A stretch of DNA of 64,000 bases, from NCBI RefSeq assembly GCF_050624435.1, contig NC_134535.1, forward strand, positions 121,507,731-121,571,730. The letters run 5' to 3'. Position numbers and translations under genes: made by a program. Position 1 is the first letter of the stretch; every line of letters begins with the position of its first letter. The stretch is from Tenrec ecaudatus. Taxonomy: Eukaryota; Chordata; Mammalia; Afrosoricida; Tenrecidae. The notes under the pieces were generated by a model. It did no database searches. It had not been told where the DNA came from and worked only from the letters and a program-made list of their open reading frames with translations. Shown in pieces: positions 1,677-38,949 of the stretch.

Positions 1677-1705
1677 CACACACACACACACACACATATA
1701 TATAT
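1677..1705. repeat. (CA)n/(TA)n microsatellite, copy 1
   Basis: Run of CA units followed by TA units. In copy 2 the same place (44266-44287) is mainly (TA)n. Confidence 0.9.
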
Positions 1706-2279
1706 GGTACATAATTTAAAAATCCCTACTCCATTAATTGAATGATTTTATTTTCTTTTCACCGCTAACTTATACAATATTCCTACTCTTATGTGGAGCA
1801 ACTGCATGTATTATTTAATTAATTATATCCTATAATCAGTGCATATTATATAGTAGGCAAAATACCAACTATATACTTAAAGTGGTGAAAATTAGATTAA
1901 AAACAAACAAAATAATTTAGTACAAGGTGGGACATTTTATACATTGGAAGTCAGCATTACTAATCATCTCTTATATTCCTTTTGTTTTGAAACATAGAAT
2001 GTTGATACTTTACAACCATCAAATTTTAATCCCAAAATATTACATTTGAGTTGGTCTAGTTTACATGAAGAAATTGGAAAAGCTTTATTCTTTATAACAT
2101 ATCACCACTCTGTAGCATTACCAGGATTAGAGGTCTCTGCCTCCTATATACAATTGAAGGTTCTTTCAGATAATTTGGGTTAACTTTACTTTGTAGGAAC
2201 CTGAATATTAAAAGATTATGAATCTTAGATAGTTAACACATTCTTAAAATAGGTTGCACCTTTTATATCCACCAAAATT

Positions 2280-2430
2280 TAAGACAAATATGACACAATG
2301 ACCAAGAGGGGACTCAAACATGACAGCTGTGAGGGTGGTGCAGGACTGGATTGTATTTCATTCTGTTGACATAAATCAGCTGTAAGTAGAACTGACAAAG
2401 CAGCACCTAACGGCAACTATTACTGTGTCT
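2280..2430 (+). mobile_element. BovB/RTE 3'-end fragment, copy 1
   Basis: gctgtgagggtggtgcagga, ttcattctgttgacataaat, cagcacctaacggcaactat. Duplicate at 44870-45020. Confidence 0.65.
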
Positions 2431-2802
2431 TGTCATGGAGAACATATATGTCTCTATACTTAGTATTACATTTTTAGCGCAACTAGTTGGCCAAGAAAAA
2501 TACCCTGTGCAATTGAGTCAAAATCTTTGACTTCATTTAAATTATTTAGTTGTTCTTGGAGAGAGTAGTTATTTTATATTTCAGTGCAAGTCTCGGTGAT
2601 ATATGTTAAGTGGAGATAAAGGATTATTATTTTGGATTTATAAATACAGGTGTTTCCCAGGGTATCAATGCTTCTAAGTGTATCATTCTCTTCTTAAGTG
2701 TGCCTTTAAGTTGAATTCATAAGTAACTAAAAATAAGCGAAAGCTTTTCGTTTTATCCTTAGTTTATCATTTACCCGTAGTCTGCACTTTTGTTCATTTC
2801 AA

Positions 2803-3013
2803 GGCGTCCTGGTGGCATTGCGGTTATGTGTTGGGTTGCTAACCATAGGTTGGCATTTGAAAGCGCCAGTGTGTACAAAGGAGAAGACAAGGCTTTCTAC
2901 TCCTATAGAGGTACAGCTCAGAAACTCCCAGGGGTAATTCTAGCCTGCCCTACCGGGTCACTCTAAGTCAGCAGTGAATCAATGGCTGTTGGTTTGGTTC
3001 TTGGTTTTAGTTG
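2803..3013 (+). mobile_element. AfroSINE, copy 1
   Basis: ggcgtcctggtggcattgcg, tgttgggttgctaaccatag, the tRNA-like head, then gaaactcccaggggtaattc and tgccctaccgggtcactcta. Duplicate at 45383-45578. Confidence 0.85.
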
Positions 3014-3274
3014 AGTGCAGTTGGAAACCCTGCTGACTATTTGCGTTTCTATCACAGATACATGGGACAGATCCTACACTGTAATAAGACACCCAGTGAC
3101 TCTTTCAAGTCCTGTTAAAATGTACTTTCAAAAGTACCGTGGGACATCATGTATGTTGCCATGATGCTGGGGCTGTATCACCAATATTTCAAATACCTGC
3201 AGTTTTAGACATTAAAGAATTACTAAGGACCATGACCCAGGGAATCCCACCTGGCTCTTATTCAACTGGTAAGC

Positions 3275-3465
3275 TTCACTTCTCACTGCTATTGAGCCAA
3301 TTCTGACACATAGCAAGCCTAATGGATAGGGCAGAACTGCACCTACTACTATCAACAGAAGCAGAACAGCCCCTCAGGTGGTTTTAAAGTGGTGGTTGAA
3401 GGTTCTCAGCTCAACGCATAACCACCATGACAGCAGAACTCCTGAATGGCAAGCCTTGTTGCTCT
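3275..3465 (-). mobile_element. AfroSINE (antisense), copy 1
   Basis: Reverse orientation: gagccaattctgacacatag, gggcagaactgcacctacta, ctcagctcaacgcataacca, gacagcagaactcctgaatg. Duplicate at 47560-47745. Confidence 0.75.
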
Positions 3466-4422
3466 CTTTTTTCTTCTTTATTGTATTAAAATGAATAAAT
3501 GTTATTGACAAGAAAAGACTCATCTTGTAATATATGGAACATAAATGCCACAGAAAAATTCCCATTTAATAATTATACATGTGAAGTTCCTGAAGCATGT
3601 CATTGTTTTCCAAGATCTTGTACAAATTGCTAGTGACATCTATTAATGTAAAGTAATTGTATTTTAAGACAAATATTTGGGGAAAAAAGCCTAGTCTATT
3701 ATAATTCTGTTTTGTGCCCCCCCCCCCACACTCTCCCCAGGATCATCAAATATGATCCCTTTAAGGCCTCATGTTAGTGGTATCTGGGCACTATCCAGTT
3801 TCTTTCATCTCTGGGTTGTGAGGTCCATTCGTATATTGGACTAATTATTTCCATTAGTAAATGCACCTTACCTGTCTGCTTAGAAATCTTTAAGACTTCG
3901 TTTGCTCCTCACTGAAGTAGGATGTAGAACACTGCACAAGGCTTATTTCAGGTGTCAAAGAGAAAAGATGTAATTTTGAAGACAGAAGTGTACTTGACAT
4001 AAACCATACTTTCATATTCAGGTGTAAGTTGGACCATGAAAATGGGTAGATCAGAGAATAATTTATGCTTTGGACTACGGTTTTCCAAGAGAAGGTATAT
4101 ATTTGGATTATTTGTATGAAATGTATTAATTGAAAAAAATCAACCATTAGGCAACTATTTGCCAACAGTCTAGAAACTTGTGATAAAATCTCAGGACAGT
4201 GCATGACTTCTTTTGTAAGGTACTACACAGAGAATTTAAAGAGAAAAAATACTTTATTTTCTAATTGAACCAGTGAAATAATTTTAAGTCCCCTATTGTA
4301 TACTGTTGCACTCATCTCTCATGGAAATCTTTCAAGTACTTCATCACCCAAGTTTCCCTTTTCCATTGAGTTATGCTTTATGAAGTATTTCAGAGCAATC
4401 TCTTTGTGGTCTCTACTTGTAG

Positions 4423-4522
4423 CCACCCAGGAAGAGTCAAGATAAAGTGGTGTACTCAGAGCTGAAATTACCTCATGCAAAAAAACAAAAAGGGAACTCA
4501 CACATAGCTCCAAAGAGAAAAG
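4423..4522 (+). CDS. KLR copy 1, cytoplasmic-tail exon with ITIM-like VYSEL
   Basis: Pyrimidine-rich acceptor ending ttgtag (to 4422) and donor AAAAG|gtaag. The 100-nt exon reads ...SQDKVVYSELKLPHAKKQ..., with VYSEL matching the inhibitory (I/V)xYxx(L/V) pattern of NK receptors. The frame is closed upstream by TAG at 4420-4422, and there is no ATG between it and the ITIM. The codon where Ly49-type proteins start (M-S-x-x) is AAG at 4432-4434. Either the start codon was lost by ATG>AAG, or an unseen upstream exon provides it. The exon ends in phase 1 and fits the next exon. Confidence 0.65.
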
Positions 4523-7500
4523 GTAAGATTTGTCTCCTTGTTTTCTGATAATATAATGTCAAATAAAAATATAAAATTATAACAATTGCATTCATATATG
4601 TGTGATAATGCTTGGTTGCTTCAATGGTAAGAGGTATATTTAACATTCAATGATATTTGTCAACAGAATAAATATTAATGTTAAGTATTAGAACAAATGT
4701 TTACTTTGTTCTAATTTTGAGGCACTTGCTACACAAATTATATAACCCAACTTTGGATTTGTTCAGGATTTCCATGGCATATTTCTACAGTATTCCTGGG
4801 CATCGTATGTATTCTTCTGGTGGCAATCGCAGTTTTAGGATTTATGTGTGAGTATCAGATATTCATAGTTCTCTTGAGAAAATTGAATCATGACAAAATG
4901 TACAATACTGTTACTGCTGAATTGCTGTTAATGAGCACAATGGTGACCATGTGGTAATGATGATGCTTTTATTACACAGTTTTTATGCCAACCAATATAG
5001 TACAGAGTTGAACTACATTGTATTAAATAATAACACGTGGATTACACATATAGTGTTACTTAATTTTGATGTAAGATGAGGTTTACATCAATGATAGGAG
5101 ATTTGGGGAAATCTTTATTTGAGTATTGCATTCATTATTTTACTGCAAAACTGCCCAAATTATAAAGAAGCATCTTTTACATGAGATGAAAATGGTTTCC
5201 ATCAGTTTTGATGTATCTTATAAATATGTTTAAAAATGTACATTTGCTTTCAGTGTCTTTTTCTGAATGATTATGAGTTCTTTGGTTCATTCATTCAACA
5301 ACCAATATTGGGTTAGGAAATATGTATGTATACCAAAGTCATAGAAAAATAAAAATCCAAATAAACACCAATAATAAACCCAGATTTAATGACAGCAGTG
5401 GCAGGGAAAATTGTTAACATGAAATGTTGGTATAAATAAAACATATTAGTACTGTGATAATGACATGAAGAGACCAGAGGAAAGGAAAAAACGTATTGAG
5501 ATCAGGAAAATTTTTCTGTAAGATTATCGTTAGTTGCTTTCAATTGATTCTGACTCATGGCAGCCCTATGTTTAGGAGATAACAATTAATCTGAGGGTGG
5601 GTATGGATTAATCAGGAATGTGATTATCTAAAAGACTCATCCAAGTATAGTAGGCAACAATGAAAAAGATTAGATTTTTTTGTTTGTGAATTACAGATAG
5701 TTCCTTGGAGAATGAAAATTATATTATGTTATAGAAACTCAGTAAGAGCAACAAACTATTGGTTTGTTTGTTCTTTGTTCTAATAATGGTGAATCTTGAA
5801 ATTCTTGTGGTATATCTAGGATCTCTGGCAGCTCTGTTGAGTAAGCATTGGACTGTTAACAGCTAGGTCCGCAGATCAAACTCATCAGCTACCCTTTGGG
5901 GGAAAGATGAGGCTGTCTGCTCCTGTAAAAATGTACAGTCTTGGAAATCCTATACAGCTCTTTATGTGTCAGAATCCAGTGGATCCCAATGGGCTTGTTG
6001 GAATATTCAGTAGCCAAACCAGACTCACTGGGAGTAGATTAGACCGAAGACCATCTGTCTATAATTGTACCCAGTGAGATAAAATGTCTGGGAATTAAGA
6101 GAATATGTGACCTAAATTGAATGATGTTTTCATCACTAATGTAGAAAGAATCTGAAAACACTGGAGAGAAAAAAAGAGCCATTTATGCAGCGAGTTATAA
6201 ACCCAGAGAGAGTATAGTCTACTAAAAGCGGGCTCCAGGAGGATGATTTTTAGGTTACAACCACATGTGGAATTCGGTGCCTGAAGTGTCAGCGGTGAGG
6301 GTTCTGAGACCGCGGTGAGGGAGGGGGCGGAAATAAGAAACAGCAAGGCATCGAGAGAGGTGGGCTAAGAGAGTCGGGGGTTCCAAATGGCACAGGAGCT
6401 CCGTTCTCTTGTGGACCAAAGTGTGCTTAAGGCATTCTGGAAAATAGAGATTTATATTTAGTAGATTCAGCTAATTGGAGGAGTGAGTGATTAAAACCAG
6501 AATGCATTCGGTTGAAAAATCATATAGAAAGATTATATTCAGGAATGAAGTACTGAGAATGATTTAAAAAATGATTGTTAAACAAAAATTATAGCAAACA
6601 TTGAGGGGAAATGGTTCCACATGAATGAGGCCTTATATGTTTTCCAGGAAATAAACATTGGTGAAACTTGTTTGGAAAATGATTTCTATTATCTCCTATA
6701 GTTAACCACGATTAGTTATTTGTATTTTGAGAATATATTCAAGAGAAATGCTTACCCATATACACTATCACACATTTATAAGAATATTTGTGCCAGCGTT
6801 CTTTATACTATATAAAATATCACAATGATCAAAGTTACCGTTATGAGTAGAATAAATGAATCTTAGCAACATAATATGACGTGAAAAAAGTAAGCACCAA
6901 AATTTTGGCAGCCCGTGATACCGTTTCAATAACGTTAAAAATACAACACACTTCCACATGCTTCAATAATTCATAAAGTTTATACACATAAAGAAAATGA
7001 TTATGTATAATATCGCATCCCCCAAATCAAACTGAATATAGTGGTATTGATTCCTACTCATAGCAAAAGTATAGGACAGAATAGAATGGCACTTGGGACT
7101 TTTGAGACTGTAAATGTGTAGGGAGCAGACAACCTCCTCTTGTCGTTGGGGAGAGGCTGATAGGTGTGAACCACATAGTTCGCGATGTAGGAAAATATAA
7201 AATATACAAAGGGTTGATTACAGTGGATCGCATAGAGAGTTGTAGGTTTGGGAGGCAGGAGACTGGAGGAAGTGAAAGTGGCATCTAGGTGCATAAAGGT
7301 AATGGTTAGCAGCCTGGGTTTTGTTTTAGGTAATGAACAGAATGACTAAATAAATAAATGAACTAAAGTTCCCAGAGCAGAGGTGCTGAGAGCACTTCCT
7401 GAGTGAACGATTATGACTAACCTTGTTTTCACACCCAAGGTGTAAAATCTATAAAGAAAACAACCTTTGTTATACAGGGGTTAAAGAAAGAACTGAAAAT

Positions 7501-10500
7501 TGGGAAACTGGTGATTTGCGATTTTCATATGCCACAGAAAACTGCTTTGCTGGAAAAATTTTCCGTATACAGGAGAGAAGTGGAATAGTTGAAGAACATG
7601 ATTAATAGCAGTGGAATAGGGGTGGGGGAAATGAGACCGTTTGTTGTTTTTGTTAGATGCTATTGAGTTGATTGTGACCCATAAAAAGCCTGTGCACCAT
7701 GGACAGACAAACTGCACGGTCCTGTGCCATCCGCCCACTTGTTGCTACGCCGGAGCCTGTTGCTGCTGCTGCTGCGTGAATCCATGTTGCCTATGGCCTT
7801 CCCTTCCGATGCCTGTCCAATATCCCACCCTTAGTAATGGAATAATGGGAATATCCATGAATAATATTGGGAGTTGCAGTCTTATGTTGTGCGAAGTGAA
7901 ATTTTCCTCTAAAATGATGAATGGCTCGCTTTGCATTTGTAGAAGAAGAGCAGAAGAGAAGGGTATTGGTGTATAATTTCTACTATTTTTGCATGTAAAA
8001 AGAGGCCATCTTCTGAGAAGTTGGATTAAGGTGTGTTAAGTAATTTATGAAAGATTAAATAAGTACTTGAAATAAAATATAGTCTACTCAGCAGCTAGTT
8101 AATATAAATCACTTTATTATTTAAAATTATGTACAATGATTATTATAAACTGAACTTCCATTAAAGCCATTTATGATCTTGAATTTAAAATATGGATGGA
8201 AGTTTTACAGAGATCCTGTGAATGTGAAATGCCGAATAATGAAACACAAGCTGATCCAAGAGTATCACCTCTGGCACGTATGTATTGAATACTTCAGGTA
8301 ATAGTTGACAGCTTGTTTTTGTTTTTAACTTGCATTGTTCCCTTCTGTCTCATTTTAATATGTGATTTTAAAACTGCAGCTTTACCTATATCTCATTATG
8401 GTAATTTTTTTATTATATTAAAGTGAACACTTCACTTTCCTTAAAGCCAAGGGTTGTGGCTCTCTTATGTTGTCCATTTTGACGCCTTTGCTTTGCAGTT
8501 CTTCATACTGATTTGATTATTTGAATTGTTATTACTTTGGGCTTGGGGATGACTTTTTCCTAATGTGTGGAATTCCTGAAATCAATAGCGTATCACTGCT
8601 CCATAACACGGTACTTGGTTTCTAGTTGAGAATCCTAGGCTCTCAGCACAGTCTTAACAATGGCCCTGGGGTTACCCAGACAGTGCCTCCCTCACTGTAT
8701 TATCATTGACAGAACTGGAAGAAAGCTATTCGCAAACATGAAAGCTTTGGGAGACAGAGCAATCAGCCATTGTCTTAGAAGTCCTTTTGAAGCAAACAGG
8801 GAAACACACATGTGGGATGATGGTGTTGCCTTTTGTTTTCAAGAAACTGTCTGTGACTGGTGCCAAGGAAAGTGGTCCTGTTGTGGAGAAAACTGTTACT
8901 ACTTTTCAACAGAAGTGAAAACCTGGGAGGACAGTAAGAAGTCATGCGAAGGGCTGCATGCCAGTCTCATTAAGATCGATGACAAACCTGAGCAGGTGTG
9001 TTCCCTTTACTTCACCTGAGTGGGGCATTCATAGTCTGAAGTAAAATTACTGCTTAGGCTTGCCTTCAGGCTTATTTGACCCATTTGGTGGCACCACTTA
9101 TACATGATGATACTGGGGCCCACAGTCTGTTTGTCTGTCTCTATTATATTCTACAATGGCAAAGTCACTCCTGAGGTCCCATTCATTTATTGGGAATCCC
9201 ATCACCCCAATTAGGTGGTCCTTCATGAGATGTTAAAGCAAGAGTAACTACTCACCAAAATAAAATGTAGAGCTTTGTTTTTGTGAACTATATTATGTCA
9301 ATTGACCTTGTTGTCCTGTGAAATATGGTCCTGAGACACAAGTCCCAGTGTCTTAATTCCTCAAAATGTTTGATTATGCCTAAGAAATTCCATAACTTTG
9401 CCATCTGCTCGGTGGCAAACATAGTGCATATATTTGCAGTGTCCATAAGTACGGAAGTAGAAAAATAACCCGAGAAATCTATATATCTGTGGGTATGGCT
9501 CATTCTCATCCCTGCTCCTTTTCAGCGTGTGTGTGTCTCAATGATCCACAACTATATTCCTATTTGCTTGTCTGCCTTTAATGCTGTCCTCCTTCCAGGG
9601 TCATCTCCTGTAGTCATCATGTTTTGCTGACCTCCTCATTGTTTATTGCCTTTCATCATCCAGGTCAATATATCTATCCAGTAGAAATACTACCTTACTC
9701 TCCTGTCCAAAGTAAATGTCACAGGGTGTATCTTTTTCGTGTGACAATCTTTGCTTGACTCTTTAGAAGAGTGGTCTCAGATTACGTGTCTGATTGTATT
9801 CCACACACATGCTGGTCTCCTTTTAAGATCACCCATGCTATGAAGGGTTTTGCAAATCCATCCTTATTCTACATTGAGTAGTATTTCATTGTGTGTCAGT
9901 ACCACAGTTTGTCCATCAATCCTTTAACTGATGAGCATTGAGGTTGTTTTCATCTTTCTGTGATTGCGAATGGGGGTGGCATGAGCTGGGTGTGCACGTA
10001 TCTAGTCATGCAAGAGCCCCTTGTATCCAGGACATCAGCCTAGTATTGTGGTGCTGGGTCATACAGCTTGCCATTCTCCACAGTGATTGTCCAAATTTAT
10101 AGCCCCAACAGCAAAGCATGATGTGGCTTCCATAGGTGGAAAGATGAAATAAAAGAGAATGGAATTTTTCCATATATGAATTCAGGAAGCATAGAGAAAC
10201 TAACCAGTGAAATTCATCTATTTATAGCAAGTTCTTTATTATCAAGAATTAATTCCATATCAAGACGGCATGCCGGTGCAGTCCAATTCACTGCACATTG
10301 TTTATCTGTATATCTTCACATTTTTGTATATCTATTTTTGAATGTATATCTTAACATTTCATGATATTGAAGCATTTTTTCCAAACAAATACTTGGCAAT
10401 TTTCTCTGTGCTTTCTGTATTTAAAATTTTTATCCTTCTCATTTGGACTTCTACTTACACAAAGTTTTTCCTTTGGTGATGGTCTACATAACTATTTGGA

Positions 10501-13500
10501 TTATATATTCTCCTCCCCCTCGCTGCAATTGTTCCTCTAGAAGAATGGCACTGAAATGATTTGTCTTCAATCATGCGAGTTCCATTTTCCATGGATTCTA
10601 ATCTACTCTTATCCTTTCAAGTCATGCTATAGATATGAAATTTTAGTACTAACTTGTATTTTATTTGATTTAAAAGATGTTCTTGAAGTTTTAATTTCTT
10701 TTTGTCAGGTTTTTTTGCACCGTTTTCCTGAATTCTTGCATTATTTTGGATGTGCAGTCTTCAGTTTTGCTTGCTGTTTCTTTGTTCTGTTTCTCCATCT
10801 ATGAATACTACCCAAATGTCATTATTTTGAGTTCATTATCAGACCATTCTCATGCCTTTTCTACCTCAAGAAGATTTTCTGTTTTTGCCACTGCTTTGAG
10901 ACACTTTGTCTTATTTTCCTATGTGAATTGAGATTGAATGTTGTTGTGCTCTTGAATTTGCATTTCACTGGTAATCAATTGTGGTTGTGTTCTTTGGAAC
11001 TCACTGCCTTTCCCAGGAGAATGTAATGGGCTGAACGTGGTTGCGCAGTTCTCTGTTTCTTGGGTACAATTACAGGTGGAGCATATTATGCATGGGCAGC
11101 TTGGACAGAGCTCTCTCTCTCTGATCAGGAGGTCTACAAGCAGACGGTGACTCTTTATCAGTTGGTATAGTGCTGTGTATTTAGTTGTTTCTAGGTTTCA
11201 GTTTCCCAATAGATGATACAGCAAGGAAAGAACAATAACTCCAACAGAGAGAATAGGAAAAGTGATAAAAAGGATCAAAATAAAACACCAGCAATATAGA
11301 GAATGAGTTTTTAAAATAAACATTGAAACAGGAAATTTCAACATTACAAAAAAATCCTTTACAAATGTGATAACAAATCTGATTCAAATATCACCACAAA
11401 TTTTCAATAAAATGGAAAAACGAATCAACATTTTTTTGTTTCTTTCCTAGGAAAGAATCGTAGGATAAACAAAATAGTATTAAAAATTAAACAAACAAAC
11501 AAAGAAAACAAAGTAGGAGGTCTTCACTCGCAGACATTCAAACATACTATATAGACAAGGTAATAAAAAAAAATGATACTGATTCAATGACAGCTATGAA
11601 GACCAATGGAGTAGAATAGAGAATCCAGAAATACAACCAAGGTACCTCTAGGCACTATCTTTTGATAAAAATCTAACACACATTAAATGGACAAGGGATA
11701 ACCCTTTTAACAAATGGTGCTGGAAAAACTGCAAAAGAAGGAAACAAGACCCAGATCTCATTCCATCTACAAAAACAAACTCAAGTGAATCAACGACTAA
11801 ATATAAATCACACAATTATAAAAACTCTCCATGAATACATTGAGAAACACTACATTGTAGAAGAATAAAGAACTGACATTATGCACATCAAAAGACTTCA
11901 TCAAAAGAGAACCCCCAGAGGAGAAAAATATTCAGAAATAATAGATCAGGTAAAGGGACGATCTCCAAAATCTACAGAAAACTACATCATAACAAGAAAA
12001 ATACCAATAACATAGTTGAAAATACAAACAAGCCTCGAACCATTTACCATTGAGGGAGCCAGCAACCATGGGAAGAAATATCTGTAATTAGAAAAGTACA
12101 AAGGAAGCCTCGCATCCACAATGGCAACCCTCCATAACACAGGAACACGACAGAAGCCAGACACAGCAGGCAGCGATAGCAATGTTTTTACATTAGAACT
12201 TTACCACCGCTCTCAAAATCAGAATGACACATCCTCAGAAAATGCAAGGGCTCATGTAGAATGCAAATGTGTTGAGAATGATGAGGTCAACAAATGTACT
12301 AATGTGCTTGACACAATGAATATATGTATGGATTGTGATAAGAGTTGTACAAGCTCCCAGTAAAGTGATTTGTTTGAAAGGAAATGGGTCACTTTAAGGA
12401 CTAAATGAAAGCAAATATAATAGCTTTATGATCCGGTATTCTATTGCTTTATACCGTTAGGAAATCAAGAACAAAACATTACCAGACGTATGCATACCTA
12501 TTTCAATTGCAACAATTTCCACAGTAGCAAACATCTGAAAACAAACAGAATCCCAATATGGGGAAATGGTTAAAAAATTTCTTGTACACACATACTTTAG
12601 CCATCAATTAAAAACAATAACAATTCTCTTAAACACCACAAAACATGGACAACACTAGAAAACATTATGCTTAGTAAACTCAATCAATTGTGCAAAGATC
12701 ATATTTAATGTTATCATTGATAGAAGGAAAAAACAAAGAAGAAGAAACATGGCTTATACACCATTAGACAGCATGCTGATAACTGAGGAGACCAGGAACG
12801 TGGGCAGAAATAGGGAGACAGGAGGTAATGGAGACACCAAAAAATCTACACATATTTAGAGGGCTTAATATGATATTATTTTTAATTTCATATCTTGTGA
12901 TGGGCTGTGTAAATATACATATTATATTTTTCTTAAAACAAAACAAAAGAAATCAAAACCAAAAAAACTCCAGATACCTTATCCCCCAAACCTAAACAGT
13001 GATTTGGGTGGCTTAAAAAAAAATAACCCCAAAGAGGAGGAAGGGTAAAATTGCAATTGCCTGGAATCTTTAGTGGCAAACAAGTTCATCTCAATAGATA
13101 CAACAGTAAGAAGGCTAAGCACAGAAAAATAAATATATAACACAAATATAAACAAAAAAAGGGAAGTAAATGCAAGTTGGGTAAAAGAAAGTTGGTAAAG
13201 AAAAGGAGAAAGAAAAATAAAATTACAAAGGTGCTTCTCAGACTCTGGTAGAGCTGGTGCTGTGCACAGGCAGAGTGTGCCTTCAACTGCTGGATGGGTA
13301 GGTGTTGGTTGGCCTTATTTCTGTACATTGGTAAGGCGTGTGTGCTTACGTGATCCTAGTCATGTGGAACACATAATCAAGCTTCTGCCTTGATGAATGC
13401 TGGTGGCAGCAGAGCAGTTCAAAATGGCTGTCATGGAAGCCAATGATGTCTCAGTTTCAGGTGTATCCCTAGCTGCCAATGTCATTCTCCTTCGTCTCCT

Positions 13501-16433
13501 AGTTAATATTTGATGTACTGCTCTTTTCTTACCTCTGAAGCTCAGGATTCTCATCCATACCTATTGCGTTTGGTGTCTTATATCTTGGTTTGTAGAAAGT
13601 CTAGGGTGTCTGTCTGCCTAGTTGCTATGGCGTTGGAAGTTCAGAGCTATGGTTTCTAAGTCCTCTCTGCTCTCTCTTCTAATTACCTATGGGTGGAATC
13701 ACTGTGTGATGGGGCATTGTGTGATGCGGTTACCATAGCTGAAGTTTATCTTTCATGTTCTTTGAAGTGTCTTTTGTTGAAGAGGAAATCCAAATTGAGT
13801 GCAGTGTTAATAATTGTAGTTAATTGTATTTGGAGGTTTTTGCATCTTTCAAAAGATTTGACCGTCCTCTTTTTTGGCCATTTTTATTCATTTTAGAGTG
13901 ATTTAGTTATCAACACCTTTGTGTTTCCATTTCCTATCTGCACAATGGAGCTGTTTCTGCCTTTTAATTTATCATTAAGGTTTTTTCCATGAATCTTAGC
14001 ACTATTTTGAGAGAGGATTCTCATTGTCTTTATGAATGATAGTCATGGTTCTGATTTTTCCACAGGACTTTATTAGGGCCCGGATCAAGTACTTTACTTG
14101 GGTTGGATTACGAAAACTGGAAAATATCAAAAAGTGGAAATGGCTTTATGATGGCTCAGAGGTTTCTCCTCATTTGTAAGTTTCATTTTATACTCCTTGC
14201 CTTACCTTTCTGTAACTGATTCATACATTACTTGTCCAGAAAGGGAAAATAATGGGGGACCGATGACACACCAAAGAAACCAACTGAAAGATATGCTAAA
14301 TTAGAAGTCACTATCTCTGGTTAGCCTTGCACATTTGCTGTAAAATATTCTGTGGTTCCTTCAGTCACGGAAGTAACTAGGAAGAACTTGCTGTGTATGA
14401 TGGTGAGAAGCAGGTGATTCACTCTTTAATAAGGTCCCTAGAGAATGCCACTTTGAGAATGTGGCATTGATTGAATGACTTGAGGGAGATAACTGAGCAG
14501 ATCTTGTGAACTCCCTGAGGTACTAGAATCCTGTCAAGAGACCAACTCATGTGATGATGTTGAAGTGGAAGTGCATTTGGAATGCTCGAGGCTGCCAAAT
14601 ATATTTCCACTTCAACATCATTACGTGAGGTGTGGCTGGCTTGGAATGCTGGAGTCGAGTGAGGAAGGGAGAGAAGTTGGTCAGAGAGGTAACCAGGGTA
14701 ACATCATATTTATGGGTGAGGACATCATATAAACTTAAAATTTTCATGAATGTAATGTGGCTATTGGAGGGTTTTTTAAAGTAGAGTTCAAACATTGGAT
14801 TCTGTTCTTGAAGGGTTATCTTGGTTGTACTTGTGAGATGAGATTACATGACAGTGGGAGTAAAATAAATGGTTGGTTGGAATTTAGTTAAGATTCAATT
14901 GGATATAACCAGGTACAAGGTGACAGTGGCTTGATTAAAATTAGTAGATATGAAGCAGGTATAAAGTGTTCATATTTCAAATGTATGTTGAAGATGTGTG
15001 GGAGTAACATGATTTCAGGATGATTTCATGATTTTGGTTCCAGCACTGGCAAAGGTAATGTTGCTTACCTTCAAATGCAGTTCAAGATTAGGTATTAGAT
15101 TCAATGAATCTCTCAGGCAGTTTGATATCTACGGAAGCATCACAGAGATTTTGGTACCTATTTGTGAATTTCACGTGAGAGGTTTGTGCTTGGAATATTA
15201 ATCTAGCATGCATCAGTGTATGGATAAGGAGTGGAGGTAGTGCACTTGGCTGCTGTCCCAAAGGTTGTGTCTGTGAGCCCACTTAAATCATTACATTGAA
15301 CAAATGTTCGACCATTTGTTTTTGTAAGAGTATAATCATGAATATCTTTTACGACAAAGCAGTAGTTTTTTTTTCTTGCTCTTTCTTTCTGTAACTCAAT
15401 GGGTTTTTATGGATTGGAGGCTAACTTCAACCCATTTAATAACAACGGCGGTACTTTATAGGTGATCTTAATACTAGGAGTCTGGATGTAATCCTGAAAA
15501 AAAAAATCAAGGACTGAGTCTTTAGCTCCCTAATGTTTAATCCCTTGAAAAGATGAGTGTAAAGAGAATCTATTAATGTCAAAAAGTGAATAAATGCTGA
15601 AGAAGAAATCCATGATTAACTTAATAAGGAGTGTTATGGAAATAATAAACAGAATTTTTAAATGTTATCACTTATCCCAAGCAGTTTTACTTAAAATTAT
15701 TACATAGGGTCAATTAAATTCATGAATAGTTGAGGGAATTATTGTCTGGCCCTATAATTGAAATTGAGTTTCCCTATTTCTAATCAATCCCACAAAAGTG
15801 TATTTTATTTTATGTCCAAGGCTTTATTCTTAGTCAGAAAAAAGGTCAATTGTGGTTTAAATGCAGGTCAGCACCATTGATGCTGAAAGTGAAGTTAGCG
15901 GTGTATTCTCAATATTATCTCCTGAACATCAATTTGTGTGACAATAAACGGGGCTATTTTTATATCTAGTTAATTTTACTACATTTCATCACTTTGAAGA
16001 AGTTTTAGATGTTTCAGAAGAATAAGTTCCCAAATGTAAGTCCAATCTCTATATTCAGGCCTCTTCATGTATGTACTATTCTTATTGCTACCTTATCTGA
16101 TCTATTATCCTTCATTTCCAATACTATCCGTTAGCAATAAAATATTAGACATTGTGAGTTAGTCACTATCTGCTGGTCATATATTTTTTAATGGATTTTT
16201 TTGTATTTTTATATCCACTGAGATAATTACATGCACTGCTAATACTAAAATTATACATGTGAATAATTTTCTAAAATGAGTATGTTCTCTTTTGCAGAAA
16301 TACTCACCTGGTGACCAAATCTACAGGGAAATGTGGATGTATCAAGTCAGAAGTTATTATGAATGAAGTTTGCAGTAATCAGTATATGTACATTTGTGAA
16401 AAGAAGTTTCCCAGTCTTTTTAAAATAAAATAA
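4423..16433 (+). CDS. KLR-family NK-cell lectin-like receptor gene, copy 1 (multi-exon, possibly pseudogene)
   Basis: Six exon candidates in order encode the parts of a type II membrane NK receptor: a cytoplasmic ITIM-like tail, a transmembrane helix, a possible stalk and a three-exon C-type lectin-like domain (CTLD). The splice sites are good and the phases agree between the three CTLD exons and between the cytoplasmic and TM exons. Proteins of this family (CD94/NKG2, Ly49, KLRE, KLRI) sit on NK cells and bind MHC class I-like ligands. The WSCCGENCYYF and LIKIDD motifs and the PWH...LGI..LL TM segment recall Ly49 (KLRA), while the CxxCQxKW motif recalls CD94, so I leave the subfamily open. 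Odd points: no ATG at the expected position (AAG at 4432), and the TM exon does not join the stalk exon in frame. Joining TM directly to the CTLD gives TAA at the junction. It may be a pseudogene, or an exon may have been missed. Confidence 0.75.
4767..4847 (+). CDS. KLR copy 1, transmembrane exon
   Basis: Acceptor ttgttcag and donor ATGT|gtgagt. The 81-nt exon continues the frame of the previous exon (G|GA) and encodes FPWHISTVFLGIVCILL followed by VAIAVLGFM, an uninterrupted hydrophobic helix preceded by a Pro-Trp-His boundary typical of Ly49/NKG2 signal anchors. It ends in phase 1. Confidence 0.75.
5815..6010 (+). mobile_element. AfroSINE, copy 1
   Basis: gtaagcattggactgttaac, ggaaagatgaggctgtctgc, tacagtcttggaaatcctat. 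Duplicate at 50115-50300. Confidence 0.8.
7640..7795 (-). mobile_element. AfroSINE-type fragment (antisense), copy 1
   Basis: ttagatgctattgagttgat, tgacccataaaaagcctgtg, then a short GCT-rich run. Duplicate at 53070-53225. The open frame across it is incidental. Confidence 0.55.
8211..8277 (+). CDS. KLR copy 1, possible stalk exon
   Basis: Flanked by acceptor ttttacag and donor gtatgt. In the frame that joins the next exon correctly (final C + AA = CAA, Gln) it reads RSCECEMPNNETQ followed by ADPRVSPLA, a short Cys-, Pro- and Asn-containing linker with a possible N-glycosylation site (NET). At 67 nt it starts in phase 0 while the TM exon ends in phase 1, so direct joining gives TAG. Either the exon has suffered an indel, a small exon is missing, or this is not an exon. 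The splice-site context and open frame are present in both copies. Confidence 0.35.
8844..8995 (+). CDS. KLR copy 1, CTLD exon 1
   Basis: Acceptor tgttttcaag and donor GAGCAG|gtgtgt. The 152-nt exon (phase 1 in, phase 0 out) encodes the N-terminal third of the lectin domain: VCDWCQGKWSCCGENCYYF, then STEVKTWEDSKKSCEGLHA and SLIKIDDKPEQ. The paired Cys residues, the CYYF strand, the KTW..S...C helix and the LIKIDD strand are diagnostic of the NK-receptor CTLD group. The ATG-started open frame around it (8660-9019) extends into intron at both ends; only this part is exon. Confidence 0.85.
9520..10150 (-). mobile_element. Old L1 ORF2-end fragment (antisense), copy 1
   Basis: Contains gagtagtatttcattgtgtg, accacagtttgtccatcaat and gcattgaggttgttttcatc, the reverse of the L1 ORF2 C-terminal/3' region (YTMEYY ... 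segment). Diverged. Its duplicate is at 58730-59355. Confidence 0.7.
11480..12760 (+). mobile_element. Old L1 ORF2/3' fragment, copy 1
   Basis: Decayed ORF2 text such as caaatggtgctggaaaaact and aagacccagatctcattcca (FNKWCWK...QDPDLIP), and a 3' end tatgtatggattgtgataag plus agttgtacaagctcccagta at about 12325-12363. Further L1-like sequence with gggaaatggttaaaaaattt continues to 12760. An 80-codon open frame lies at 12121-12363 (see rejected). Confidence 0.7.
13080..13690 (-). mobile_element. Probable L1 leader-like fragment, copy 1 (shortened)
   Basis: Antisense, purine/pyrimidine-biased sequence continuous with a longer version in copy 2 (62310-63370). Copy 1 lacks about 480 bp after 13220. 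L1 assignment is by general resemblance to L1 5' regions and is uncertain. Confidence 0.35.
14066..14175 (+). CDS. KLR copy 1, CTLD exon 2
   Basis: Acceptor tttttccacag and donor CATTT|gtaagt. The 110-nt exon (phase 0 in, phase 2 out) encodes DFIRARIKYFTWVGLRKLEN followed by IKKWKWLYDGSEVSPH. The WVGL core and the KWKW segment are the conserved middle of NK-receptor lectin domains. As in the whole family, no Ca2+-binding EPN/QPD motif is visible. Confidence 0.85.
14546..14629. other. Long imperfect hairpin in KLR intron
   Basis: Arms 14546-14570 and 14605-14629 are inverse complements over 25 bp with two mismatches. An inner stem atttgg (14575-14580) pairs with ccaaat (14595-14600), leaving a loop of about 14 nt. 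It could be a small palindromic transposon remnant or a precursor-like RNA hairpin. Confidence 0.75.
16298..16433 (+). CDS. KLR copy 1, CTLD exon 3 and stop codon
   Basis: Acceptor ctcttttgcag. Together with the two bases of the previous exon it reads LNTHLVTKSTGKCGCIKSE, then VIMNEVCSNQYMYICEKKF and PSLFKIK, and stops at TAA 16431-16433. The last Cys pair (CSNQYMYIC) and the ICEKK ending complete the CTLD fold. An AATAAA overlaps the final codons (16424-16429), but it would have to work very close to the stop; other A/T-rich signals follow. Confidence 0.85.
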
Positions 16434-18320: not shown

Positions 18321-18333
18321 GAAAGTACATTGA

Positions 18334-19785
<1,452 letters not shown>

Positions 19786-20020
19786 AAGAAGTTTTTTCCC
19801 GTGTTTTATGAAGAGACACTGGGACTGAAAAATCTGAAAGCTGAGCTGCCTTTTTTGGACCAAGATACTCCCAGGCAACTTGACAGCCCCATGGTGGAAT
19901 GGAAAAAGCCCCCATTTGGGGATCAGAACAACTTGAGTTCAAATGTCAGTGACCTCACTTACTGCTTCACCTCCCTAAGCCTCAATTTTCACATCTATGA
20001 GTTGAGTTGATACTGTAGAT

Positions 20021-20228
20021 CAGTGGTTCTCAACCTTCCTAATGCCATGACCCTTTAATAAAATTCATCATGTTGTGGTGACCACCCACCTTAAAGTTAT
20101 TTTTGTTGCTACTTCATACCTATACTTTTGCTACTGTTATGAATCCTAATGTAAATAAATATCTGATATGCAGGATGTATTTTCTTTGTTACATAATTGA
20201 ACATAATTAAAGCATCGTGATTCATCAC
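20021..20228 (+). mobile_element. 5' part of a SPIN (hAT) DNA transposon within the SLC38A6 retrocopy 3' UTR
   Basis: Starts exactly at the SPIN-type terminus cagtggttctcaacct and runs through the characteristic stretch with ttgctactgttatgaatc and tctgatatgcaggatgtatt. It stops at ...attaaagcatcgtgattcatcac, directly followed by the A-tract. The transposon must have been in the parent gene's 3' UTR when the mRNA was made. Its ATTAAA (about 20212-20217) is a common poly(A) signal variant, roughly 12 nt before the tail. Family assignment is from memory of the SPIN consensus. Confidence 0.85.
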
Positions 20229-20258
20229 AAAAAAAAAAAAAGAAAGTACATTGACGGG

Positions 20259-21200: not shown

Positions 21201-21384
21201 AATATGAGTAGAGAAACCAGTTGAGGCCAACTCCTGGTGACTTTATGTCTGTCAGTGTAGAACTGCGCACCTTAGGGTCTTCAGGGATTGAATTTTTAGC
21301 GTTCTCTCACTAAGTCTTTCTTTCGGTTGACCTGAATCACTGCCCTTTAGTTAGCACCTGAATATTTGAAATATTGGAAACAGT

Positions 21385-29802: not shown

Positions 29803-29868
29803 TACACACACAAAACACACACTAATGAGAAAGGAAAGTAGGAAAACTCCCAACACAAAAAGTATACA

Positions 29869-32800
29869 ATGGCATCACAGAGTCCGCACATGGAGATAAT
29901 AACCCAGAATATCAATGGCCTGAACTCAGGCATTAAAAGACTGAGACTAGCAGAATGGCTTAGAAAACACAACCCATCAATTTGCTGCCTACAGGAGACA
30001 CATCTCAAGGCTACAGACAAAAATAGGCTGAGAATCAAAGGCTGGAGAAGGACCTACCAAGCAAACAGCAATACAAAAAAAGCAGGGGTTGCAATCCTTA
30101 TCTCGGATAAAATTGACCTCAAAGTGCAAACCATAAAAAGAGATAAGGAGGGACACTATATAATGCTCAAGGGAATAATAGACAATGAACCACTAAGCAT
30201 TGTAAACATATATTCCCCGAATGAGAGACCAGCTCAATACGTGAACCAAACACTCCAAAAGATTAAGAAAGAAATCACAGACTCGACAATTATAGTGCGT
30301 GACTTCAACACACCACTCACTGAGAAAGATAGATCACAGGGAAAGAAACTCAACAAGGAGACTAGAGAGCTAAACTCCACAATTAGACAATTTGACCTAA
30401 TAGATATTTACAGAGCTTTTCATCCAAATACAAAAAATTTCACATTCTTTTCAAGTCCCCATGGCACATATTCAAAGATAGACCACATGCTGGGGCATAA
30501 GGCAAATCGACATAAATTTAAGCACATTGAAATAATACAGACCTCTCTCTCTGACCACTGTGCCATAAGACTGGAAATCAACAAAAGGAAGACAAAGAAA
30601 ATAAGAGCAAATAATTGGAGGATGAATAACTCTCTACTGCAAAAGGAGTGCATACTGGTGCAGATCCGAGACGAAATCAGGAAATTTCTAGAAACCAACG
30701 AAAATGAGCACACGACGTACCAAAACTTATGGGACACAGCAAAGGCAGTCATCAGAGGAAGGTTCATAGCAATACAAGCACACCTGAGAAAGGAAGAGAG
30801 ACTCATGACGGATACGCTGACACAAAATTTACAAAAACTAGAGCTGAGTCAGCAGGACAACCCTACTAATAGCAAAAGAAAAGAAATTATAAAAATCAGG
30901 GCTGAGATTCAGGAGAGGGAAAATAAAAAAACTATGGAAAAAATTAATATCGCTAAAAGTTGGTTCTTTGAAAAGATAAACAGGATCGATAGACCATTGG
31001 CAAACCTAACCAAAGAAAGGAGGGAACAAATCTCAATAGCAAGAATAAGGGATGAAAGAGGGGTCATTACAACAGACCCTAATGAAATCAAAAGGATAGT
31101 TACACAATACTATGAAGGATTGTACTCCAGTGAATTCAACAATTTGGAAGACATGGACAAATTCCTGGAAAAACAATCCCTCCCTAGACTATCCTTGGTG
31201 GACATCAAGAATCTCAACAGACCCATCACAATAGAAGAAATAGAAAAGGTTATCAAGGGATTACCAACAAAAAAATCTCCTGGACCAGATGGATACACTG
31301 GAGAATTCTATCAAGCATTCAGGGAAGAACTAATACCAATCCTACACAAACTTTTCCAGAACATAGAAAAAGATGGCAAACTCCCAAACTCCTTCTATGA
31401 AGCTAGTATAACTCTGATACCCAAACCGGGCAAGGATCCCACAAGAATCGAGAACTACAGACCGATATCCCTAATGAACATTGATGCAAAAATCCTTAAC
31501 AAAATACTAGCCAACAGAATACAAAAGTATATAAAACAAATAATTCACCATGACCAAGTGGGATTCATACCAGGGATGCAGGGATGGTTCAACATAGGAA
31601 AGACCATTAGTATTATTCGTCACATTGATATGAAAAAGTATAAGAATCACATGATAATATCAATAGACGCAGAAAAAGCATTCGACAACATCCAACACCA
31701 ATTCCTGTTTAAGACACTAGCGAAAATAGGAATGGAAGGAAAGTTCCTCAAGACAATACAAGCTATATATGAAAAACCAACAGCCAAAGTCATAGTCAAT
31801 AAAGAAAAGACTAACACAATCCCACTGAAAAAGGGAACCAGACAAGGATGCCCCTTGTCTCCACTCCTATTTAATATCGTGCTGGAGGTTTTAGCTAACA
31901 GCATAAGGCAAAGAAGTGACATCAAAGGTATTCGTCTGGGGAAGGAAGAGGTGAAACTATCGTCATTTGCAGATGATATGATTTTATATATGGAAAATCC
32001 CAAAAGTTCCACAAGGGGAGTACTGGAAGCAATAGAGGAGTTTGGCAGAGTGGCAGGATACAAGATCAACAAACAGAAGTCCATCGGACTGTTATACACA
32101 TCAGATAAGACCACAGAAGAAGAGATCACAAAGGTGGTACCCTACACAATAGCCAAACACAAACTGAAATATCTAGGGATACACTTGACTGAAAAAACAA
32201 AAGATCTATATAGGGAAAACTATAGAACACTATTACAAGAAACCAAGAGCGACCTCAACAAATGGAAGAATATTCCATGCTCTTGGATTGGGAGACTTAA
32301 TATAGTTAAGATGTCAGTTCTGCCAAAGGCACTATATAAGTTTAATGCTATCCCGATACAATTACCATCATCTTTCTTCAAAGAAATGGAAAAACTGATT
32401 ACCAACTTCATATGGAGAGAGAAGAAGCCCAGAATTAGCAGAGAACTCCTCAAGAAGGACACCGTGGGAGGGCTTGCTTTACCTGACTTTGGCACATACT
32501 ATGCAGCCACAGTTCTCAAAACTGCATGGTATTGGTACAATGACAGATACTCAGACCAATGGAAAAGAACTGAAAACCCAGAAATAAAAGCATCAGCATA
32601 CACACAGCTGATCTTTGACAAGGGCCCCAAAAATATCAAATGGGAAGCAGATGCCCTCTTTAACAAGTGGTGCTGGAAAAAATGGATATCAACATGCAGA
32701 AAAATGAAGCAAGACCCTTATCTCACTCCATGCACAAGAATAAACTCAAGGTGGATCACAGACCTTGAAGTTAAACCCCAAACTATTAGGGCCATCAATG

Positions 32801-33315
32801 AGGGAATTGGGACCAACTTGAGAACTTTGGCGCAGGGAATACACAGGTTATCAGAAATAGGGAAGGACACAAACACAGAGGAGGCACAAATCGACAAATG
32901 GGATATACTGAAGATAAAACACTTGTGTACATCTAAAGAATTCACCAAGAGAGTAATAAGAGAGTCCACAGACTGGGAAAACATCTTTAGCAATGACACA
33001 TCAGACAAAGGCCTTATTACTAAAATCTACAGTACTCTGCTAGCTTCCAAAAAGAAAAAAACCAATAGCCCACTTGAAAGGTGGGCAAAGGACTTGAACA
33101 GAAGTTTCACAGGGGCAGAAATCCAAATGGCCAACAAACATATGAGAAAATGTTCCCGATCTTTAGCCATAAGAGAAATGCAAATTAAAACAACAATGAG
33201 GTACCACCTGACACCCTCAAAGGTAGCCCAATTCAAAAAATCAGAAAGCAACAAGTGTTGCAGGGGCTGTGGGGAGACAGGAACTCTCATCCACTGCTGG
33301 TGGGACTGTAAGTAG
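29869..33315 (+). CDS. L1 ORF2 (endonuclease + reverse transcriptase), frameshifted near the 3' end
   Basis: 1148 codons are open. The AP-like endonuclease residues sit at N14 (NINGLN), E43 (LQETH), D145 and N147 (RDFNT), D205 (KIDHM) and H230 (SDHC), the same numbering as I know for human ORF2p. Residue 144 is Arg where Gly is usual. The RT domain has [42 protein letters not shown] and the catalytic F700-A-D702-D703. The Cys-rich motif CCRGCG...HCWWDC precedes a one-base deletion near 33312-33314; the remaining C-terminal part is in another frame to 33689. Only this lesion separates it from a full ORF. Confidence 0.93.
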
Positions 33316-33689: not shown

Positions 33690-36492
33690 GAATTAAAAAA
33701 AATTTTTTTAAAAGCAAAAGTGGCATAGGGAAAAAAGCTACTGTATACAAACATTTTAGGGGTGAAGACGGTGTAGTATGGAAGAGACCAGACCAAAACC
33801 AGGGATGTACATGGCAGACAATGGTGGAGGAGTTGGGGAAAGGAAAACAAAAGGATGAATACAAGGAAGAAAAGGGTAGTGGGGTCATGGGGCATTAATC
33901 CACCCAAGGGGAGGGTATTGTTTATATCTCCACAGGGAAAGTGGGACCAGACTTCAACCCAGTGTCTCAAGGTGTGAATGCAATATCCCGGCGTGGAGGA
34001 GGGAACCAGTGGAGAGGTCTGGGAGGCTGGCCCCAGCACCATAAATTAAGTGGATTCCTGCCCCTCCCCCGAAAAGAATTTGTTCCAAAGGACGACATTG
34101 ACTCTGCAGCTCCGGGAGATGGACATATCTGATCAGAGCACACGGGAGCAGATGAAGGGGCAGGAGGAGAGAGTGGAGCACAGCCTGGCCCACCAGGCTG
34201 TGATGATGATGTTCCTGAGTAGAGCAGCCAGTCCACAGAGAGAACAACATGGCTGGCCCTACTATGAGACATGATGCCCTTCAGTGACTAAGGGCGATAC
34301 AGGGGATAGCACCGGAGACACAGTGTAGGAATTGCACCTGACCTGATCCCACCACACCGAGGCAAATCACTGGGGGAGTGCAGCGGAACAGCAAGGGAAT
34401 GGAGTGGCAAGGTCCCCAGGGAATGCTGAAAGTGGACTTTGGGGCCAGGGCGTGGTGCCCCAACAGACTGGACTGGAAAACTCTCCTAAGGGCCAGCAAA
34501 CGATCCCTGAACTAACTACAAGCTTTTCTCTTGTGAACTGTTTTGTTCTGTTCTTTGTCAGTGGTTTGTTTTTGTTGTTTTGTTGTCTGGTTGTATACTG
34601 TTGCTTTGTGTTCCTCTGTCTTGTTTTCGTGCATGTTAGTGACTCCACAGGTCTGTCTGAATAGGACCGGCTGGATGAGCTATCTGGAGGAAAAACAACG
34701 GGACCGACAGTTCCGGGGGGACTTAGGGTGGGGGGATAGGGGGGTAAGGAAGTGGTGTTAACAAACCCAGGGACAAGGGAAAAACATGGGACCCCCAAAT
34801 GGTAGAGAAGGGGGAGTGGCAGGCCTGGTGGGAAATGATCAAGGGTAAGGTTGCTTAGAGAAGAGGTAAACTCTAGCCCAGGTGGCGATGAAGCATGGTA
34901 GTAGGGCAGGAGGAAAGTCAAGGGAGATGGAGGAAAGAGCTAGGAGTCAAAGGGCATTCATGGAGGTCTAGACAAAGACATGCACATGCAAATATATATA
35001 GGAGGATGGGGAAATAGATCTATGTGTCTATATTTATAAGTCAAGTATTAAGGTGGCGGAAGGACCTTGGGCCTCTACTCAAACACTCCCTCAATGCATG
35101 AATACCTTCTTTTATTAAATTGAATCTCTATGATGCTCACTCTCCCGACACAAAGGCTGGAGCCAAAGTGGGTGAACAAGTAAATGTGGTCAAGAAAGCG
35201 GATGGTGCCCGGCTATCAAAAGAGATAGTGACTGGGGTCTTAAAGGCTTGAAGATAAACAAGCAGCCATCTAGCTCAGAAGCAACAAAGTCCACATGGAA
35301 GAACACACCAGCCTGTGTGATCGAGTGGTCCCAAAGGGATCAGTTACCAGGCATCAAAGAACAAAAAATCATATCATTGACTGCACACCTCCATGATAGG
35401 ATCGCTGAAGACAAATGGGTGCATAAGCAAATGTGGTGAAGAAAGCTGATGGTGCCCGGCTATCAAAAGAGATAGTGTCTGGGGTCTTAAAGGCTTGAAG
35501 GTGAACAAGCGGCCATCTAGCTCAGAAGCAAAAAAGCCCAGATGGAAGAAGCACACCGGCCAGTGCGATCACGAGGTGCCAAGGGACCAGGTATAAGGCA
35601 TCATGCAAAAAAAACCCACAAACAACGATATAAGTGTGTGTATGTATGTGTATATATGTGTATATGTACCATATTAAATGAAGGGGGGAAGTGCAGAGTG
35701 GAGACCCAAGGCCCCAGTGTCGGCCAATGGAGATCCCCTCATAGAGGCGTTTAGGAGAGGAGATGGGTTAATTAGGGTGCGAGGTAGTACCGATGAAGAA
35801 CACAGCTTTCCCCCGATCCTGGATGCTTCCTCCCCCCAACTACCATGATCTGAATTCTACCTTGCAGTCCTGGATAGGACAGAGGCTTTACACTGGTGCA
35901 TATGAGGGCTGGAGGTACAGGGAATCCAGGGTGGATGATACCTTCAGGACCAAGGGTGTGAGGGACGATGCTGGGAGAGTGGGGGGTGAGTGGGTTGGAA
36001 AGGGGGAACAGATTACAAGGATACAGATGTGACCTCTTCCCTGGGAGAGGGACAGCAGAGAAGGGCGGGGGGAAGGGAGACTCTGGATAGGTCAAGATAT
36101 GACAAAATAACGAGGTATAAATTACCAAGGGCACATGTGGGAGGGGGGAAAGGGGAGGGAGAGGGAAAAAAAAAAGAGGACCTGATGCAAGGCGCTTAAG
36201 TGTAGAGTAAATGCCTTGAGAATGATTGGGGCAGGGAATGTATGGATGTGCTTTATACAATTGATGTATGTATATGTATGGATTGTGATAAGAGTTGTAT
36301 GAGTCCCTAATAAAATGTAAAAAAAGAAAAGAGGAGAAAAAAATGATTAGGGCAAAGACTGTACAGATGTGCTTTATACAATTGATGTATGTATATGTAT
36401 GAACTGTGATAAGAATTGTATGAGCCCCTAATAAATTGTTAAAATTAAAAAAAAGAGTTGTATGAGCCCCCAATAAAAATGATTTAAGAAAG
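33690..36492 (+). other. L1 3' UTR with internal tandem duplication and three stacked 3' tails
   Basis: Long G-rich 3' UTR with polypurine tracts. A segment beginning gatggtgcccggctatcaaa occurs at 35201 and again at 35448 (period about 247 bp). The extreme 3' end, with ttgatgtatgtatatgtatg and AATAAA, is stacked: AATAAA at 36309-36314, 36430-36435 and 36472-36477, each followed by an A-rich run. Confidence 0.85.
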
Positions 36493-38541: not shown

Positions 38542-38949
38542 AGGAAAATATATTTTGGATGGTCTTAGGAACTGAGACACCGCTCCGCTATCTGTCTCCA
38601 GGTGAGTCTGCCCACATACAGATATTCCCACATATGAGGACCCAGCCTGAAGACTGTTACTCATGATACAGCATGCTTCAAGACAAAATTTCATTTATGT
38701 GTAATTAAAAATAAATATTTCACAATATATAACTACATATTATTTTTGAGATCAATCACTATGCTTTATTTATGTTCAATTAAAAACAATGGAAATATAT
38801 CCTGCATATCAAGTCTTTACATTTGAATTCATAACAGTAGCAAAATTACAGTGATGAAGTAGCAATGAAAATAATTTTATAGTTTGGTTCACCACACCAT
38901 GTGGAACTGTGTTAAGTGGTCACTGTGTTAGGCAGGTTGAGAACCAGTG
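38542..38949 (-). mobile_element. SPIN (hAT) non-autonomous DNA transposon
   Basis: Contains ggatggtcttaggaactg, accgctccgctatctgtctc, gatacagcatgcttcaag, ataacagtagcaaaattaca, and ends aggttgagaaccagtg, in the inverted orientation of the copy at 20021. It covers most of the internal region, but its left inverted terminus is worn or missing. SPIN elements are known horizontally transferred hAT transposons in tenrecs, bushbabies, murids, some bats, opossums, anoles and Xenopus. Confidence 0.85.

Follow-up and report, generated by a model that had tools for sequence, protein, structure and literature searches.

A recent retrocopy in the tenrec records an mRNA 3' end that a SPIN-type DNA transposon very probably supplied

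In a stretch of 64,000 nucleotides of the Tenrec ecaudatus genome (hereafter the window; contig NC_134535.1, positions 121,507,731 to 121,571,730), we found a processed retrocopy whose 3' end lies inside a transposon that we take to be SPIN. The parental gene carries the same transposon, complete, in its last exon. Judged from the genomic sequence, one account very probably covers the whole: a signal within SPIN ended the parental mRNA, and that mRNA was then recently retrocopied.

Results

The window holds a retrocopied mRNA that ends within SPIN

The features of the window that bear on this account are listed here, with coordinates, strand and the observation behind each.

18321–18337 (+): 5' target-site duplication, GAAAGTACATTGACGGG; 17/17 nt identical to 20242–20258
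18338–20241 (+): processed retrocopy between exact 17-nt target-site duplications, with an intact ORF of 456 codons and a tail of 13 A
18338–18414 (+): retrocopied 5' UTR, GC-rich, within the parent's first exon piece; the parent match begins at base 1 of the retrocopy
18415–19785 (+): intact ORF of 456 codons, amino-acid transporter family; from the ORF list and Pfam Aa_trans
19786–19814 (+): first 29 nt of the 3' UTR, up to the 3'-UTR exon junction; parent donor ATGAAGA/GTAAGT
19815–20020 (+): 3'-UTR-only terminal exon, non-SPIN half; parent acceptor CCCACTTAG/GACACTGG
20013–20020 (+): putative 8-bp duplication from the SPIN insertion, left copy, CTGTAGAT; right flank in the parent CTGTATAG, 6/8 equal
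20021–20228 (+): SPIN-type hAT element, 5' 208 nt of 479 bp; matches to other copies, complete element in the parent
20021–20035 (+): terminal inverted repeat, CAGTGGTTCTCAACC; opposite repeat CAGCGGTTCTCAACC in the parent
20206–20211 (+): ATTAAA, putative poly(A) signal, part of the SPIN consensus; 21/26 aligned copies
20228–20233 (+): putative cleavage zone, made up of C and as many as five A's that parent DNA shares; the parent reads CACAAAAATAATGTG
20229–20241 (+): poly(A) tract of 13 A, of which at least 8 are absent from parent DNA; comparison with the parent
20242–20258 (+): 3' target-site duplication, GAAAGTACATTGACGGG; directly after the A-tract
38550–38949 (-): second SPIN-type copy in the window, outside the retrocopy; lower end judged by eye

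Three hallmarks of a LINE-1-type retrocopy were found at this locus: a target-site duplication identical at 17/17 nt, introns confined to the parent, and an A-tract that goes beyond the parent's. The 3' end reads ATTAAAGCATCGTGATTCATCAC, then 13 A, then the duplication, and because the duplication directly abuts the A-tract, the SPIN piece belonged to the inserted RNA. A first-pass annotation of this DNA had placed the mRNA end about 207 nt into a SPIN element. The end lies 208 nt in (20021–20228), the A-tract follows at once and the duplications enclose the SPIN piece, which bears the claim out. As a control for chance repeats, random pairs of 60-nt window stretches were found to share 5.8 nt on average; the largest shared run in those 300 pairs was 34 nt, in a window that contains a long duplication. 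Parental sequence upstream of the retrocopy start is unlike the 17-nt duplication.

Pfam Aa_trans covers residues 46–450 of the ORF (E 1.8e-65), and we provisionally take the protein encoded at 18415–19785 to be SLC38A6, a name that follows the human protein and not a database label. Protein searches against solved structures (E up to 0.001) and a plasmid collection returned no match, and neither RNA families (at gathering threshold) nor tRNAs were found in the window. The window also includes a LINE-1 ORF2-type frame of 1157 aa with endonuclease and reverse transcriptase domains (29842–33315, 9.6 kb from the retrocopy) and, near 21220, a presumably AfroSINE-like sequence. The retrocopy sits between the two copies of a long direct duplication (432–14306 and 43012–64000, 89–96% identity), of which the copy at 43012–64000 holds additional inserts of up to ~3.8 kb.

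The last exon of the parent carries the complete transposon

The parent was found in the window's own genome, on the minus strand of contig C109, as 16 exon pieces over 72 kb. With positions 18338–20020 as query, there were 20 matches: the window itself, the 16 pieces (C109 44093787–44165613), two on C22 and a weak one on C62. Copies of the element were searched with a 221-nt query against the same genome (3.92 Gb), 40 of 4289 first-look candidates being scored. The best match after the window itself was C109:44093571–44093786 (minus), at an identity that rounds to 100%, and the next reached 89% among the best 40 of 4289.

The penultimate exon of the parent stops at ATGAAGA/GTAAGT, 29 nt past the stop codon, and the last exon begins after CCCACTTAG; GT–AG was read at this 3'-UTR intron, which is ~854 nt long. 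Since the junction lies 29 nt past the stop, the terminal exon is 3' UTR throughout. The retrocopy includes 414 nt of it, 208 of them SPIN. Inspection of the parental 3' UTR for the same SPIN had been set beforehand as a refuting test, and the last exon holds a complete element of 479 bp, which runs 271 nt beyond the point where the retrocopy switches to A. This exon supports the first-pass claim that the transposon supplied a cleavage site to the parental transcript.

At the joint the parent reads CACAAAAATAATGTG and the retrocopy CAC followed by 13 A. The A-tract marks the exact point of divergence (AAAAATAATGTG in the parent, 13 A in the retrocopy), and beyond the cleavage point the parent continues with CACAAAAATAATGTGTAATTCTATTTTGTGAAATATTTATTT. 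Because the parent holds five A's at this point, at most five A's of the tail are shared with DNA and at least eight are untemplated.

The parental exon also bears on two other origins of the joint. SLC38A6 mRNA could have been joined to a separate SPIN-ending RNA by template switching during reverse transcription, and a locus elsewhere in the genome (L040, described below) looks like such a chimaera. The parent refutes this, since that very SPIN copy occupies the same exon and begins at the identical base; the exon match continues across the joint, and outside the tail a single difference is seen. We give the chimaera practically no credence. SPIN could also have entered the retrocopy at its new site and been truncated later, and the genome holds many SPIN copies (40 scored of 4289 first-look candidates). 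Such an event is refuted by the same insertion in the parent, and its truncation point would have to be the A-tract inside the duplications, which makes it exceedingly improbable.

The element resembles SPIN

Our label for the element follows its terminal repeats and sequence, not a labelled database match. The repeats CAGTGGTTCTCAACC and CAGCGGTTCTCAACC, which bound the 479-bp element of the parent, are of the form CAGNGGTTCTCAACC, which we take to be that of SPIN termini, and the consensus built from the aligned copies apparently agrees with the SPIN sequence. In the parent the element is flanked by CTGTAGAT and CTGTATAG, equal at 6/8 positions, possibly an imperfect 8-bp duplication; the SPIN of another locus (L083) apparently has GTGTAAAT on both sides, as read by eye. 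Terminal repeats, a short non-autonomous form and many copies are features in common with SPIN elements, and the imperfect 8-bp duplication may be another.

Identity to other genomic copies was 85–89% in 38 of the best 40 of the 4289 first-look candidates. Within the window, the SPIN piece aligns over 217 nt with the second copy (minus strand, 38949 down to 38740), with 79% identity and an E of 4e-46. The Smith–Waterman score is 116, whereas 200 sequences from Markov resampling that roughly preserves dinucleotides scored 28 at most. This second copy extends past the poly(A) point; it has AATAAA at the place of the hexamer and CTCAAAAATAATATGTAGTTATATATTGTG where the retrocopy turns to A. Two SPIN patterns had no exact match in viral contigs, and a phage collection held no similar DNA. 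We provisionally set an OC1 identity aside, solely because the terminal repeat differs from that of OC1. OC1 is a hAT family that has likewise been reported in tenrec as horizontally transferred (PMC3621081), and SPIN is described as horizontally transferred 15–46 My ago, with galago, murine rodents, opossum, tenrec and vespertilionid bats as hosts (PMC5857283).

The putative poly(A) signal belongs to the SPIN consensus

The last non-A base of the retrocopy is C20228, and the tail starts 17 nt after ATTAAA, or up to 22 nt after it if five genomic A's were transcribed. The first-pass annotation was right about an ATTAAA before the end, while its "dozen bases" fell short of this distance. The hexamer stands at the same place in 21 of 26 aligned SPIN copies, which were taken from the 38 scored matches (window and parent excluded) by similarity rank and are thus biased towards the query; the other five carry five different one-base variants. 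Given its presence in 21/26 copies, ATTAAA is most likely SPIN's own and was in the element on arrival. We looked for the origin of the signal in a SPIN transposase gene, in five short stretches that lie behind five of the 147 matches obtained with Pfam's hAT dimerisation domain when 150 of 1024 candidates were scored; these belong to another hAT-like family, with SPIN matches of at most 12 nt.

Taken alone, a nearby hexamer is weak evidence. ATTAAA or AATAAA is found 10–30 nt upstream of 50/208 positions in the SPIN piece and of 3108/63801 positions in the window. The retrocopy also contains AATAAA at 19777, 20057 and 20154, so the transcript bypassed three upstream hexamers, which counts against our reading. 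At 19777–19785, AATAAA overlaps the stop codon (AATAAATGA) and is a possible early poly(A) signal, unused in the retrocopied transcript. In the second window copy, the 40 nt that follow the corresponding point have a T+G content of 0.65, a value attained by 10% of window positions, and such enrichment was too weak to count as a downstream element.

The A-run at the joint allows another reading, internal priming, in which LINE-1 reverse transcriptase started at the CAAAAA run of a longer parental mRNA and the tract grew by slippage. At precisely this spot the parent DNA carries a run of five A's, and the majority of the aligned SPIN copies carry four or five; this retrocopy alone would be compatible with such a start. 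However, at least 8 of the 13 A's are absent from the parent, and ATTAAA stands at the usual distance both here and in L056, a second retrocopy described below. The tail of L056 follows ACAAT, whereas its source reads ACAATATGTAATT, with no A-run. We consider internal priming improbable.

Other RNAs may have ended at the same SPIN point

We searched the window's own genome with a pattern of 35 places, from SPIN to CAC plus 13 A, with 3 mismatches allowed. It matched 38 places, and the reversed pattern 0. In the 30 of these that were read, SPIN clearly continues in 12 and ends in 18 by a score rule, two of the latter (L055 and L057) only after a visible continuation of some 20 nt. In an exploratory search, direct repeats of 16 nt at L040, 11 nt at L042 and 11 nt at L056 came to light; the 14-nt repeat of L033 is nearly all A and was not counted. 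Control stretches in the same search had repeats of at least 11 nt in 9/30 loci (largest 21 nt), so an 11-nt repeat alone is modest evidence.

Under a stricter rule, fixed after the candidates had been seen (repeat of at least 11 nt, bound to the end of the A-tract, with at least 5 non-A bases), 3/17 SPIN-stopping loci pass, the window copy excluded, versus 0/166 control A-runs from the same loci. The window's own copy (L030) does not pass because its duplication lies outside the 1.5-kb flank taken there; in the window the duplication is seen. No passing repeat was found at 14/17 stopping loci; for L031, L034 and L053, an upstream search to ~5.8 kb gave no repeat of at least 11 nt.

L056 is the best of the three further cases, mainly on account of its source locus. 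Its 441-nt body matches L083 (C102:16902952–16903363) at 83%, and SPIN is complete there and runs on. L056 reads CACAGAAACAAT and then A's, where the source has CACAAAAACAATATGTAATT; the 11-nt repeat lies on both sides, and the end falls 26–27 nt after ATTAAA, away from any source A-run, an argument against internal priming as a general cause. Within the element the distance from hexamer to end is thus 17–22 nt in the window retrocopy and 26–27 nt in L056, both within 10–30 nt.

The other two differ in structure. At L040 (SPIN end C121:44624609), a SPIN tail and an A-tract follow an mRNA 3' end that has an A14 tract of its own, all inside the 16-nt repeat, and the mRNA part matches C62:146399296–146399493 at 98%. 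It looks like a chimaera, from template switching or from read-through of an earlier insertion. L042 (SPIN end C1:62212928) consists of a retroelement, 33 nt of SPIN, an A-tract and the 11-nt repeat; the retroelement is also present in the window at 35077–36330 (81%). It has the look of a retroelement transcript that terminated at the SPIN signal, and in this it resembles LINE-1 3' transduction, from which the window retrocopy differs as a spliced mRNA.

The retrocopy is recent and younger than the SPIN insertion

Retrocopy and parent differ at 9 of 1851 bases compared (0.49%), gap-free. The 12 raw differing positions had included two in alignment overhang at exon edges, where a further exon piece spans the base and shows no difference, and one inside the A-tail; 40 bases of one exon, N in the parent, were left out. 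At 0.49% the retrocopying event is recent. The parental SPIN stands at a K2P of 0.072 from the consensus of 26 other copies (range of those copies 0.046–0.084), and by this comparison the retrocopy is far younger than the insertion. The first-pass claim that the retrocopy came after SPIN is thus right, if weak (9/1851 against K2P 0.072).

Eight of the nine differences are coding, five amino-acid-changing and three silent. Three of the nine are C/G exchanges (18434, 18444 and 18447) that cluster oddly in a span of 14 nt in the first coding exon. In simulation, an ORF stayed open with a chance of 0.48 at 0.5% divergence with indels and 0.73 at 0.2%, so the intact frame needs no selection. We set selection on the ORF aside, chance being sufficient at 0.49% divergence and the 5 + 3 coding differences too few.

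An older retrocopy records an unspliced 3' end

The two C22 matches form an older retrocopy (L011, C22:194547720–194548890) that matches the mRNA at 78–85% in two pieces. Past the 3'-UTR donor it continues with parental intron sequence for ~200 nt or more, and it diverges near an A7 run. As L011 contains intron sequence and lacks the SPIN exon, the gene also made an unspliced 3' end. Its noncoding part differs from the parent by a K2P of 0.119 over 174 sites, or ~0.06 per lineage. We considered L011 as proof that the SPIN exon is derived and rejected it, ~0.06 per lineage being inseparable from the 0.072 of SPIN. The divergences being comparable, we claim no order, and an ancestral end and an alternative isoform both stand. 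The flanks of L011 showed no clear duplication (longest match 10 nt). At ~1409–1500, L011 has ~92 extra nt at a parental exon junction, from a lost alternative exon or a later insertion.

Discussion

We propose that a SPIN-type hAT element, presumably of horizontal origin, inserted into the 3'-UTR-only last exon of the parent, where it is complete, with ATTAAA on the mRNA strand. The element would have brought this hexamer, which is in its consensus, an A-rich cleavage zone 17–27 nt further on and then a U/GU-containing stretch (in which enrichment is weak). Cleavage factors would have used the SPIN signal, giving an mRNA end 208–213 nt into the transposon, as two retrocopies with known sources suggest; retrocopy and parent match up to this common point. 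LINE-1 machinery then probably reverse-transcribed the spliced, polyadenylated mRNA, and the retrocopy has the 17-nt duplication and 13-A tail of such an event. The word "exaptation" in the first-pass annotation, implying selected use, is too strong for this 3' end.

Poly(A) sites derived from transposable elements are already known, and the SPIN case is a new and unusually well documented example. According to PMC3554611, some alternative poly(A) signals lie in transposable elements (citing Lee 2008), and ATRN has a terminal exon and signal supplied by L1. There, as here, an inserted element supplies the end signal of a host mRNA. The source in ATRN is a retrotransposon, whereas here it is a non-autonomous hAT DNA transposon of a horizontally transferred family, and our evidence is a retrocopy with its parent rather than RNA data. 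The position of the tail and the duplications likewise gave the end of the parental transcript for microRNA retrocopies (PMC7692494), but the end recorded here falls in a DNA transposon still present in the parental exon. Among the titles and abstract openings searched, which did not include the main SPIN papers, we found no SPIN-carried poly(A) site, and we claim no absence from the literature.

SPIN may, with about even odds in our judgement, be a portable poly(A) site. A working consensus signal ~185 nt from one end would mean that horizontal invasion scattered latent 3' ends in very large numbers across the genome at once, some of them used by host genes and retroelements; to speak of "thousands" is to extrapolate from 4289 first-look candidates. 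Because the signal is in the SPIN consensus and at least one other retrocopy with a known source ends at it, the parallel SPIN invasions of several mammals would offer a natural experiment on how often a transposon donates a poly(A) site. If SPIN is such a portable site, 3' ends would have been remodelled in parallel in every SPIN-invaded lineage, with retrocopies as the record. The locus described here joins the arrival of a transposon, the probable takeover of a host 3' end and a datable copy of the mRNA whose parent can still be read.
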